Assembly: GCA_943358395.1 (NCBI GenBank)
Contig: CALRGY010000014.1
Span: 1-32,245, forward strand
DNA: 32,245 nucleotides
Reading direction: 5' to 3'
DNA from: Candidatus Uhrbacteria bacterium
GTDB lineage: Bacteria > Patescibacteriota > Patescibacteriia > UBA9934
The notes beneath the pieces are model-generated. The model saw nothing but the letters and a program-made list of their open reading frames with translations. It was not told where the DNA came from and searched no databases. Within the stretch, counting starts at the first letter, position 1. Each line of letters starts with the position of its first letter. Positions 11,512 to 16,164 of this stretch are shown piece by piece. Made by a program: the position numbers and the translations under genes.

Positions 11512-12627
11512 TTACTCGAGCGACGGTCGTTCGATCGTTGGCATTTCGATGAGGTCTTCTGTTGGGCCGTCCGTCAATTTCACCACATCTTTACTCATCT
11601 TTTTCAGCTCATTGCTCGAGAAATTATATTGGTTTACCACAGTGCTCACTGCATTTCCTAGCTTGCCGTGATATTCCGCGTACGTTCGAAAATGCTTCCC
11701 AAGGTCAGCGACTCGCTTGATGATGTCTTGAGCCTTTTCTTCAATTTTCATTGCGTGGAGGGCCTGGAGAACGGTTTGAAGATATGCGAGGAATGAGGTT
11801 GGCGAAACAATAATGACGTGATATTTGCTTGCTGCGCGCTGAATGAGATTTTCGTTATCCTCTTGTGTGGAGCCTATTTTATTCACTAAGAGATCGTAAT
11901 AAATCGCTTCGTGTGGAATGAACATGAAGGCGAAATCCATAGTGCCTTTGCTTGGTTGAATGTATTTTGATGTCTCAAGGATGCGATTTTTTAGATCGTT
12001 AATGAACAGTTTCTCTAATCGTTCTCGCTCCGTTCCGTCGTCGGTCTCCGAAATGCGATTATAATTTTCGAGTGAAAACTTTGAATCGATGGGAATGATT
12101 TTGTCTTTTACGAACACGACGGCATCCGGAATGAGGTCTTTATCGTTTTCATCCTTCCCTAATCGATACTGCATGGCGTAACTTCCCGGCTCCATGGCAT
12201 TCTTCAAGAGCGTCTCCAGGTAATATTCTCCCAGAATTCCTCGATGCTTTGGATTTTTAAGAATATCTTGCAAATTTCTGAGTTGCGATGAGAAGTCGAG
12301 AACTTGTTTGTTGGTTGCGTCGAGAGTTGCGAGCTTTGTTGTGACTTCTTGGATGATGCGAGACGTTTGTTCGAATTGAACTTGAATAGTTTTATTGGAA
12401 CGATCAAGACCGGTGTTGAGCTGATCGTTCACACGATCGAGCTTTGTTTGCACTTCCTGACGTTGCTCGGTTGTTGCTCGCAATAATTCCTCGCGAATAC
12501 GAGATATTTCGGTAAGAAGATTTTGCGACGCAACAGAATCACTTCCATTGCGTTTTTGAAATAAGAAGAGTGTTCCTATTACTGCCCCGAATCCAATAAT
12601 GAGGATAATAGCGGTGGTTGTGTCCAT
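11512..12627 (-). CDS. rmuC: DNA recombination protein RmuC
   Basis: N-terminal TM, coiled coil, RmuC core (HRGILGEYYLETLLKNAM…IPIDSKFSLENYNR…FMFIPHEAIYYDLL). Confidence 0.93.
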   Translation of the reverse strand: MDTTTAIILIIGFGAVIGTLFLFQKRNGSDSVASQNLLTEISRIREELLRATTEQRQEVQTKLDRVNDQLNTGLDRSNKTIQVQFEQTSRIIQEVTTKLATLDATNKQVLDFSSQLRNLQDILKNPKHRGILGEYYLETLLKNAMEPGSYAMQYRLGKDENDKDLIPDAVVFVKDKIIPIDSKFSLENYNRISETDDGTERERLEKLFINDLKNRILETSKYIQPSKGTMDFAFMFIPHEAIYYDLLVNKIGSTQEDNENLIQRAASKYHVIIVSPTSFLAYLQTVLQALHAMKIEEKAQDIIKRVADLGKHFRTYAEYHGKLGNAVSTVVNQYNFSSNELKKMSKDVVKLTDGPTEDLIEMPTIERPSLE

Positions 12628-12736
12628 AGGTTTTATTGACGCGATAATGTTGCGATACGTATACTCTTCTTGTGCTGGTGCAGTATATCACAAGGGAGAT
12701 ATATATTTTGCGACACATGTTGGTATTGGTGAGTGA

Positions 12737-12917
12737 TAGGACTTTCTCATTTTAGACCAGTTTCGATAAAGATAGAGGAAGTCATCTGAGACGTACGTAA
12801 TGGTACGTTCACCCCGCTTCTCGCGAGAAGCGGGGTGAACGATTTTCCGATGATCTGAGTCACGTCGTTCGTGAACGACGTGATGAATCGAAAATGGGCA
12901 AAAGGAGGAAAGAATAA
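12737..12917. repeat. TIR/hairpin repeat element copy A
   Basis: Starts TAGGACTTTCTCATTTTAGACCAGTTTCG; degenerate right end CGAAAATGGGCAAAAGGAGGAAAGAATA; internal perfect 36-bp palindrome. Confidence 0.8.
12806..12841. repeat. Perfect 36-bp palindrome CGTTCACCCCGCTTCTCG|CGAGAAGCGGGGTGAACG
   Basis: 18-bp arms, no spacer, no mismatch. Confidence 0.95.
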
Positions 12918-12928
12918 GTGATCATTTT

Positions 12929-13005
12929 GACCTCGTAGCTCAACTGGATAGAGCAGGTCCGTCCTAAGGACAAGGTTGCAGGTTCAACTCCCGCCGAGGT
13001 CACCA
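12929..13005 (+). tRNA. tRNA-Arg(CCT) with encoded CCA
   Basis: GACCTCGTAGCTCAACTGGATAGAGCAGGTCCGTCCTAAGGACAAGGTTGCAGGTTCAACTCCCGCCGAGGTCACCA. Confidence 0.93.
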
Positions 13006-13007
13006 GA

Positions 13008-13027
13008 ATTGTTTCACGTGAAACAAT
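13008..13027. promoter_or_regulatory. parS: parS-like site 1
   Basis: ATTGTTTCACGTGAAACAAT contains the known parS consensus TGTTTCACGTGAAACA. Confidence 0.9.
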
Positions 13028-13074
13028 CGTTCGTGTTTAAGATAGTTTGTCTCATTTTTTTAGGTTAGAAATAG

Positions 13075-13199
13075 TAGGACTTTCTCATTTGAGGCTATTT
13101 TCGGTGAACCAGGAGGAAATGTCGTGAGACGTACTTAACGGTACGTTGAACGACTTTCCGACGCAGTGAGTCGAAAAGAGACCAAATGGGAAAGTCCTA
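13075..13199. repeat. TIR/hairpin repeat element copy B
   Basis: TAGGACTTTCTCATTTG...CAAATGGGAAAGTCCTA with inner hairpin ACGTAC-TTAACG-GTACGT. Confidence 0.85.
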
Positions 13200-13202
13200 A
13201 CT

Positions 13203-13278
13203 GGGCCTGTAGCTCAGTTGGTAGAGCGCTGCATTCGCATTGCAGAGGTCAGCGGTTCGAATCCGCTCAGGTCCACCA
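13203..13278 (+). tRNA. tRNA-Ala(CGC) with encoded CCA
   Basis: GGGCCTGTAGCTCAGTTGGTAGAGCGCTGCATTCGCATTGCAG...CAGGTCCACCA; G3:U70 pair present. Confidence 0.95.
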
Positions 13279-13306
13279 AAAAACACCGAATTATCGGTGT
13301 TTTTTA
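13278..13306 (+). terminator. Terminator after tRNA-Ala
   Basis: AAAAAACACCGA-ATTA-TCGGTGTTTTTT. Confidence 0.8.
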
Positions 13307-13307
13307 A

Positions 13308-13434
13308 TAGGACTTCCTCATTTTGCCCATTTTCGGCTTACTTCCTCGACGTGATCGACGGTGTACCAAGAAGTACACCTTGACGATCCCGTCATCGTTG
13401 CGCACCGAAACTGGTCGAAAATGAGAAAGTCCTA
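13308..13434. repeat. TIR/hairpin repeat element copy C, inverted relative to A
   Basis: TAGGACTTCCTCATTTTGCCCATTTTCGG...CCGAAACTGGTCGAAAATGAGAAAGTCCTA; inner hairpin GGTGTAC-CAAGAA-GTACACC. Confidence 0.85.
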
Positions 13435-13567
13435 TTATTTTAAGAATCTATTTCTCGGTCGGAGTGGTTATCGAATAGATATAATCGATTCTTCCCATCC
13501 TTTTCTTGGTTTAGAATGTGATTGAGCTATATATTCGATCATGGTGGCGCGATAACGGTGCCTCATA

Positions 13568-13587
13568 ATTGTTTCACGTGAAACAAT
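13568..13587. promoter_or_regulatory. parS: parS-like site 2
   Basis: ATTGTTTCACGTGAAACAAT, identical to site 1. Confidence 0.9.
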
Positions 13588-13948
13588 CTCATCAGAATTG
13601 ATCTTTTTATGCTGTATTCCATCGGTTTTAATGAAATAGACGCATTCGATCTTTCCTCGTTAGGATTATTGTGGCTTTAATAGTTTTTAGTTATCACGAA
13701 AACATGAGCTCGATGCGATATTTTCCATTTTTTTGATTGTTGTGAGTGTAGCAAGAGAACTTGCTTCGAAGTCTTTTTAGATGAAAACATTTTCTCATGA
13801 TATTGAGGGGTGATTACACTCTCGATGCTCATCGAAGATGAGAAGTTTCCTTAAAAATGATCGTCATAGTGACTCCGACGCCAATTAATAGTCTCATTTT
13901 AGATTGATTTGAGGAAAGATTCTTGATTCATGGGGCACGAATCACTAG

Positions 13949-13968
13949 ATTGTTTCACGTGAAACAAT
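13949..13968. promoter_or_regulatory. parS: parS-like site 3
   Basis: ATTGTTTCACGTGAAACAAT, identical to site 1. Confidence 0.9.
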
Positions 13969-14088
13969 TCATTACGAACGAGGGCATGTTGATAAGCATC
14001 GATTCTCAACGCATTATATGTCAACGCTAGTCTATACATATTCTAAAAACATAACAATTTACGGTCTATCAACACACTTATCCCTTAC

Positions 14089-14097
14089 TTATCCACA
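14089..14097 (+). promoter_or_regulatory. DnaA box candidate TTATCCACA
   Basis: Exact DnaA box consensus with near matches TTATCAACA (rc, 13987-13995) and TTATCCCTT (14078-14086). Confidence 0.45.
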
Positions 14098-14171
14098 TTT
14101 TTTCAAAGTTAGCCAAATTTTCGCCTTCATCATGACGACTTTTAGTGTTCAATGTGGTAAAATAGGGGCAT

Positions 14172-15092
14172 ATGATTCGTTGGATAAAATCAACATTATC
14201 GCTAATATTAGCCATAATATCAATTTTTCAATCGAATGTTGCTTTAGCGGCGATGTCTTCGACGAATTATCAGATCCAGTGGGATGAGTTTTCTGCAGGC
14301 GGAGGCAATAGCTCTTCGGCATCCTATACTGTTCGCGATAGCACCGCTGGTTCTGGGGCTGATTCACGATCTTCGTCCGCAAGCTATCGTATCGATCAAG
14401 GCTTTCGCGCCGGTGTGTATGATCAGGTAGTGGACTTCACTCCATACGTTCAGGATAGAAGTACACAGGTTGCTGCCACGGCATTTAGTTCAAATATCGT
14501 TACCGTCACAACTGCGGCAGGCTTTGCAGTGAGCGATTGGCTCATCATTGTTCAAGACGAAGGCGCCTCGCAGGTTGCGGCAATGGGGCAGATTTCGGGT
14601 ATTTCCGGCACAGACATCACTATTCGATCATCGTATTCGGGGAGCACACCAACGATTGATGGCTCCAATGACCAGGTGTATCGCATGTCACCTACTGCAA
14701 CAAATGCGCTAGGAACACTCTCTTCATCGATAGTGACGACGCAGATTATCGGCTGGGTTGCTTCCGCAGACGTTTCCCAAGGCTTTGGTGTATATGCGTT
14801 TGTCGATGATGATTTCCAGGTGGATTCCAACACCATCGCCGGTGTTGCAGATGGATCAGTAACAGCTGGAGACAGCGAATACGGCGCCCGTGCATCAGAT
14901 TCCACTCTTGCGACGTCCACCTTCGACACGCAAGACACCGCATTCACCACCACTCCCGCTCTTGTTGGAAGCACTTCGGCGTCATCGTTCACAAACAGCG
15001 GATTTATTACACTCAAAGCAGCAGTCTCCAGCGGGCAGGCCGGTGGAAACTATACACAAACGCTGACCACGATTTTTGTAGGGGATTATTAA
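14172..15092 (+). CDS. Secreted/surface protein of unknown function
   Basis: N-terminal signal peptide (IKSTLSLILAIISIFQSNVALAA) followed by a Ser/Thr/Gly-rich extracellular-type sequence. Confidence 0.7.
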   Translation: MIRWIKSTLSLILAIISIFQSNVALAAMSSTNYQIQWDEFSAGGGNSSSASYTVRDSTAGSGADSRSSSASYRIDQGFRAGVYDQVVDFTPYVQDRSTQVAATAFSSNIVTVTTAAGFAVSDWLIIVQDEGASQVAAMGQISGISGTDITIRSSYSGSTPTIDGSNDQVYRMSPTATNALGTLSSSIVTTQIIGWVASADVSQGFGVYAFVDDDFQVDSNTIAGVADGSVTAGDSEYGARASDSTLATSTFDTQDTAFTTTPALVGSTSASSFTNSGFITLKAAVSSGQAGGNYTQTLTTIFVGDY

Positions 15093-15147: not shown

Positions 15148-16164
15148 TTAGTCTCCAGCTTTTAACGCAACGAGTTGTTGAATTATTTCGTCAGGTTTTC
15201 GGTAGCCAATGGCTGCCCGTGGTCGCCCATTCAGTTGACGTTGCACACGTTTGATCTCTTTCGTTGAAACGGTGCGGAAGTCGGTGCCCTTTGGAAAATA
15301 CTGACGGATAAGTCCGTTGGTATTTTCGTTTGTGCCACGCTCCCATGGACTTCCCGGATGAGCGAAATATACCTTCATTCCGGTCGCTACCGTAAACTTT
15401 TTATGGTCGCTCATTTCTTTCCCCTGGTCGTACGTGAGGGACTTCGTGAATTCTTTTGGTAACGTACGCATTGCTTTGACGTATGCCTTACGCACTGATA
15501 CTGCATCTTTGGCTTTGAGTGGCACCATGATGGTGTATCTCGTCGTCCGCTCGACAAGTGTTCCCATTGCGGACTGCTTGTATTTTCCCATGATGAGGTC
15601 GCCCTCCCAATGTCCTGGCACTGTGCGCTCTGCAACCTCTGCCGGGCGCTCCTCAATGGATAGCATATCTGCGATCTTTCCTCGCATTTCGGTCGCTTTA
15701 CTCATCTTCGTTTTTCGTTTTCTTCGGTACTTCCGTTCCTGACGGAGACCTTTAATGAGCTCTGCTTTGAGGGAACCTCGTGGCAACACATAAATGTATT
15801 GGTAGATGGTTTCTGGAGACAGATGCATATCTTGCCTTCCAGGATACGTGCTCCGGAGTGTTTTGGCGATCTGATTTGGCGACCAACGGTTCATGAGACC
15901 TGAGATGACCTCAGCGAGGAGTGCCGGATTCTGCGTCAATTTTCGTCGACCAAACTTCCGAGATGCGGCTTTACGCTGTGCCCGACGCGTCGCCAAATTC
16001 GCTCGATATCCGGAGATGCCGCCATTCTTGCTAACCTCCTGAGAAATGGTGCTCGTTGATCTGCCGATTCTGCCGGCAATGGCGGTCATGGATTCGCCGG
16101 AGGCTAATCCTCGACTTATTTCTTCTCGGTCAATATTTGTTAGCCGAACGTAGGATTCTGGCAT
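15148..16164 (-). CDS. IS30-family transposase
   Basis: IS30 HTH (MTAIAGRIGRSTSTISQEVSKNG), DDE core (GHWEGDLIMGK; LTYDQGKEM; HPGSPWERGTNENTNGLIRQYFPKGTDF). Confidence 0.95.
   Translation of the reverse strand: MPESYVRLTNIDREEISRGLASGESMTAIAGRIGRSTSTISQEVSKNGGISGYRANLATRRAQRKAASRKFGRRKLTQNPALLAEVISGLMNRWSPNQIAKTLRSTYPGRQDMHLSPETIYQYIYVLPRGSLKAELIKGLRQERKYRRKRKTKMSKATEMRGKIADMLSIEERPAEVAERTVPGHWEGDLIMGKYKQSAMGTLVERTTRYTIMVPLKAKDAVSVRKAYVKAMRTLPKEFTKSLTYDQGKEMSDHKKFTVATGMKVYFAHPGSPWERGTNENTNGLIRQYFPKGTDFRTVSTKEIKRVQRQLNGRPRAAIGYRKPDEIIQQLVALKAGD

Follow-up and report, generated by a model that had tools for sequence, protein, structure and literature searches.

Three identical parS-type palindromes very probably mark the chromosomal centromere of a Candidatus Uhrbacteria bacterium and lie beside conserved DnaA boxes

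Three copies of one palindrome, clustered within less than 1 kb of DNA of a Candidatus Uhrbacteria bacterium, very probably serve a ParABS system as its chromosomal centromere (parS). The 16-mer core TGTTTCACGTGAAACA is found by exact scan at positions 13010-13025, 13570-13585, and 13951-13966 of the window (the whole 32,245-nucleotide stretch analysed), in each case as part of the exact 20-mer ATTGTTTCACGTGAAACAAT (13008-13027, 13568-13587, and 13949-13968), so the first-pass annotation, which had reported an identical 20-mer beginning at 13008, 13568, and 13949, was right at all three positions. The sites and their landmarks are as follows.

11512..12627, minus strand: rmuC, which borders the interval on the left, conserved in relatives
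12929..13005, plus strand: tRNA-Arg(CCT) (ARAGORN), landmark of the interval, conserved in relatives
13008..13027, no strand assigned: putative parS site 1, a perfect 20-bp palindrome with the exact 16-mer core; cluster conserved in the genus
13203..13278, plus strand: tRNA-Ala(CGC) (ARAGORN), landmark in many relatives
13568..13587, no strand assigned: putative parS site 2, with the exact 16-mer core
13949..13968, no strand assigned: putative parS site 3, its 16-bp core aligning in 5/5 genus members
13987..13995, minus strand: DnaA-box-like TTATCAACA, invariant in 5/5 genus members and at a distance of 102-103 bp from the exact box
14018..14039, no strand assigned: imperfect copy of the conserved palindrome whose family form is TTGTCTACGCTAGCGTAGACAA, flanked by parS and the exact DnaA box
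14089..14097, plus strand: exact DnaA box TTATCCACA; 25/25 homologous intervals have such an exact box
14172..15092, plus strand: putative exported protein without a Pfam match, right border of the interval, conserved

The clustering of the sites is far above the chance level. With up to three mismatches to the 16-mer allowed, four matches were observed in the window vs. a mean of 0.19 in window shuffles, and no shuffle reached four. In the entire 912-kb genome (28 contigs), the 16-mer occurs exactly three times, always within the same 1 kb of the gap; in addition, a single match with two mismatches resides on a different contig, and the control (the pattern read backwards) gave one match. The genome-wide search proposed in the first-pass annotation therefore returned a single cluster of three exact copies, not scattered sites. 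The DNA around them had been described as non-coding; it is indeed free of protein genes at 12628-14171 but harbors two tRNA genes, and hence lacks coding sequence only as far as proteins are concerned. No known RNAs beyond tRNA-Arg(CCT) and tRNA-Ala(CGC) were found in this gap. Site 1 does begin just past tRNA-Arg(CCT), with two bases between the gene end (as placed by ARAGORN) and the palindrome, an adjacency that is incidental.

As had been observed earlier, parA, parB, and dnaA are all missing from the window; the ParB homolog expected elsewhere in the genome is present on contig C10. This ParB (302 aa) scores 178.6 bits, above the TIGR00180 cut-off, and according to the list of open reading frames, the gene of a 261-aa ParA lies directly upstream; the two form one operon. 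ParA is a deviant Walker ATPase whose best family scores do not reach the curated cut-offs set for the named equivalogs. The nearest solved relatives of ParB by sequence are Spo0J/ParB structures, and the protein contains the motif GERRLR (GERRxR being expected for ParB) together with a helix-turn-helix (HTH). An SMC-type protein is encoded on contig C7 (each of its two head halves matches TIGR02168 but stays under the whole-family cut-off), and the DnaA gene on contig C4. By analogy with the family, ParB dimers would load on the parS sites and slide with CTP over the nearby DNA; the ParB–parS complex would be moved by ParA and would recruit SMC, so that the origin region would be segregated first.

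The cluster is conserved beyond the source genome. All five genus genomes possess one cluster each, comprising 3, 3, 10, 3, and 2 exact sites within 1 kb, always in the order RmuC / tRNA-Arg(CCT) / parS / putative exported-protein gene. The 10 sites of relative G002 are irregularly spaced and have unrelated flanks; lacking a common flanking sequence, they are not simple duplications, and it seems that they are maintained by selection and not by tandem copying. The same interval can be recognized across the whole family as well as in further families of the order, and exact parS is present in families f1-f4 (e.g., in the interval of G011, G013, G054, G055, G065, G066, G068, and others). Overall, the presence of ParB and ParA in the genome, the single unscattered cluster, and its same place in the relatives uphold the parS identity suggested in the first-pass annotation.

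Downstream of site 3, the genus has a block in common that is made up of minus-strand TTATCAACA, a palindrome centred on CTAG, and the exact box TTATCCACA. An exact DnaA box was recovered in 25/25 intervals, whereas 200 dinucleotide shuffles gave 0.3 such intervals on average and never more than 3; the 25 intervals come from related genomes and hence are not independent. Since exact boxes are kept in the gap of every relative examined, it is tentatively proposed that DnaA binds beside the centromere, where it may couple partition or a neighboring promoter to the replication status, a reading which we place just short of an even call.

It could be argued that the gap itself, combining parS with DnaA boxes, is the replication origin and that dnaA is merely near. 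The conserved boxes in a long, AT-richer gap are in line with this reading, as is G006, on whose contig the DnaA boxes are most densely clustered in the gap. Still, GC skew is equally negative on either side of the gap in G003 and G001, where it changes sign at dnaA, not at the parS cluster, and no skew switch was found at the gap. The upstream region of dnaA holds 3-4 DnaA boxes in what we read as the classic rpmH-rnpA-dnaA layout. An origin located in the gap is hence improbable, and on the strength of GC skew it was rejected for the genus; this evidence rests on the relatives' contigs taken as stretches, and the skew of G005, G006, and G012 is harder to read. A second DnaA-box cluster is situated after the gene downstream of pnp (e.g., G005:C5:45112-45557 (locus L152) and L177:2980-3430). 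Its two or three exact boxes are arranged in a fixed way, and on contigs that span both, the cluster is 8-15 kb distant from dnaA; it is a possible alternative origin in the genera with less clear skew.

parS is normally found in an origin-proximal position (PMC7333895). In G001 and G003, two relatives of the same genus, dnaA resides on the same contig as the parS cluster, at a distance of 23 kb and 25 kb, respectively; with the skew switch equally far away, the cluster is origin-proximal, as usual. The earlier description of the cluster as separate from the usual par/dnaA locus thus holds for parAB, which is elsewhere, but not for dnaA. In the source genome, dnaA is found at 5.2 kb on contig C4; by synteny, this contig starts ~10 kb past the window's left end, the one that faces dnaA; contig C14 stops short of dnaA, and synteny suggests a parS–dnaA distance near 29 kb. 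Accordingly, the likely replication origin is put some 25-30 kb away from the cluster, and most of the window displays a positive skew, which agrees with replication from left to right.

The centromere reading must also be weighed against a Noc-type (nucleoid occlusion) function of the palindromes or their role as a transcription-factor operator. The sites do lie upstream of a gene, and the best NCBIfam score of the ParB belongs to a nucleoid occlusion model, but at 213.6 vs. the 315-bit cut-off. The palindrome has the sequence of parS, and the sites are few and clustered, with a copy number of 2 to 10. Noc is characterized by glutamine at position 173, lysines at 179/184, and arginine at 201, whereas in Caulobacter ParB, R173 is a parS-reading residue and position 201 is an invariant glycine in ParB orthologs (PMC7383237). 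When the Caulobacter numbering is transferred to the Uhrbacteria proteins through alignment with solved relatives, the ParB in question has arginine at the position equivalent to R173 and lacks the two Noc lysines (179/184) and the Noc arginine (201). The Noc or operator reading is very improbable. Position 201 is serine in 18 or 19 of 19 aligned Uhrbacteria ParBs (ParB loci L005, L054-L071), vs. the reported glycine, a point against the centromere reading. Variants of the SHAR motif (SAGR/SQAK) were encountered in the ParBs of G015, G016, and G022.

The gap also harbors a ~125-bp hairpin element with the ends TAGGACTTTCTCATTT, at 12737-12915, 13075-13199, and 13308-13434 of the window; the fold of the copy at 13075 is much more stable than that of its shuffles (z -7.7), and another copy occurs directly upstream of parA (C10:25331-25455). 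Its ends number 108 (53 + 55) in the 912-kb genome vs. 0-1 for the control, implying roughly 50 copies genome-wide. The notion that the palindromes are mobile repeats carried with this element, three copies of which lie among them, is already refuted by the copy numbers (~50 vs. three) and is further opposed by G001-G003, which possess parS clusters but no element ends in the gap. An IS30-type transposase gene is present at window positions 15148-16164, between two genes that adjoin in G001-G004, and hence is probably a recent insertion in the source genome. It was considered as a parent of the 125-bp element and rejected, a simple scan having revealed no terminal repeats around it.

The probable chromosomal centromere is not preserved in this place by all relatives. 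In G006, G007, G009, G019, and the genus of G014-G018, the interval is kept without any parS-like site at up to three mismatches, the intervals of G009 and G017 having been seen only in part; the parS-less gap is represented by loci L118-L122 (G014-G018), L114 (G006), L115 (G007), and L123 (G019). ParB was confirmed in the parS-less G006, G015, G016, G018, and G019; in several relatives the gap, the DnaA box, and ParB are kept and recognizable parS is gone. Possession of parS in the gap is hence not shared family-wide, which speaks against the centromere reading as a general one; the site may have drifted, it may have moved elsewhere, or ParB acts in another way in these relatives. In the ParB of G015 and G016, SAGR replaces SHAR in the DNA-binding region. 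When a replacement palindrome was sought in these relatives, no parS-like candidate that is repeated came up; the CTAG palindrome alone was found, and the parS-bearing genomes have it too.

The CTAG palindrome, TTGTCTACGCTAGCGTAGACAA (~20 bp, up to three mismatches), was detected in 21/23 family genomes, usually in 1-3 places. Family-wide, it is almost confined to three locations (per-place counts were tallied by hand from match tables): the parS gap (19 of the 21 genomes having it), the vicinity of the DnaA-box cluster near dnaA (300-440 bp from the boxes between pnp and dksA-lspA, in 11 genomes), and the promoter region shared by a small HTH_17 gene and a divergently oriented ECF sigma factor gene (10 genomes). 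At the same threshold, only the gap copy was found in the source genome. An exact scan of 85,462 genomes returned eight records, six titled Uhrbacteria and two titled only 'bacterium'. The copies beyond pnp sit inside a coding frame (L172:3054, L177:2980, and others). From the position of the palindrome upstream of the HTH_17 gene, one can guess that the HTH_17 protein binds it. The gap might then be a composite centromere and replication-control locus, where the HTH_17 protein, autoregulated via the palindrome, would bind beside the two origin-proximal DnaA-box clusters of the gap and of pnp/dksA-lspA, tying DnaA activity to centromere function; such a circuit is rather unlikely, and if true, it would be a control of replication and partition not described before in Patescibacteria.

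The Uhrbacteria centromere resembles the systems of Bacillus subtilis (Spo0J/Soj) and Caulobacter (ParAB) in its consensus parS, the parAB operon, SMC, and an origin-proximal cluster of few sites. Unlike in these bacteria, the parAB of the source genome adjoins neither dnaA nor parS, the ParB has a serine at position 201, and some relatives lack recognizable parS. According to PMC6399470, partition in Caulobacter is DnaA-triggered, with DnaA boxes in the parS region (Mera et al. 2014), and by this precedent a DnaA–centromere coupling is plausible. As in Caulobacter, DnaA boxes adjoin parS and the pair is origin-proximal; in contrast, the Uhrbacteria lineage is unrelated, the gene neighborhood is another one, there is an extra conserved palindrome, and the DnaA box persists in relatives without parS. 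A centromere within a replication-control locus is also known from rctA/parS2 of Vibrio cholerae chromosome 2, where, unlike in the Uhrbacteria gap, the initiator is RctB and not DnaA (PMC6399470); homology is not implied.

In the open literature, no paper joining parS, ParB, and Patescibacteria was found, nor any on parS in CPR bacteria. The parS cluster appears to be an ordinary and well-supported one in a poorly studied lineage, and the palindrome circuit represents a lead only. Overall, the findings suggest that ultra-small Patescibacteria of the Uhrbacteria lineage keep a complete canonical ParABS centromere, in a fixed place order-wide. The DnaA boxes and the palindrome in the gap make the DnaA–centromere link testable outside Caulobacter, and the ParB-bearing relatives without recognizable parS offer natural cases for finding out which DNA ParB recognizes once the consensus site has been lost.
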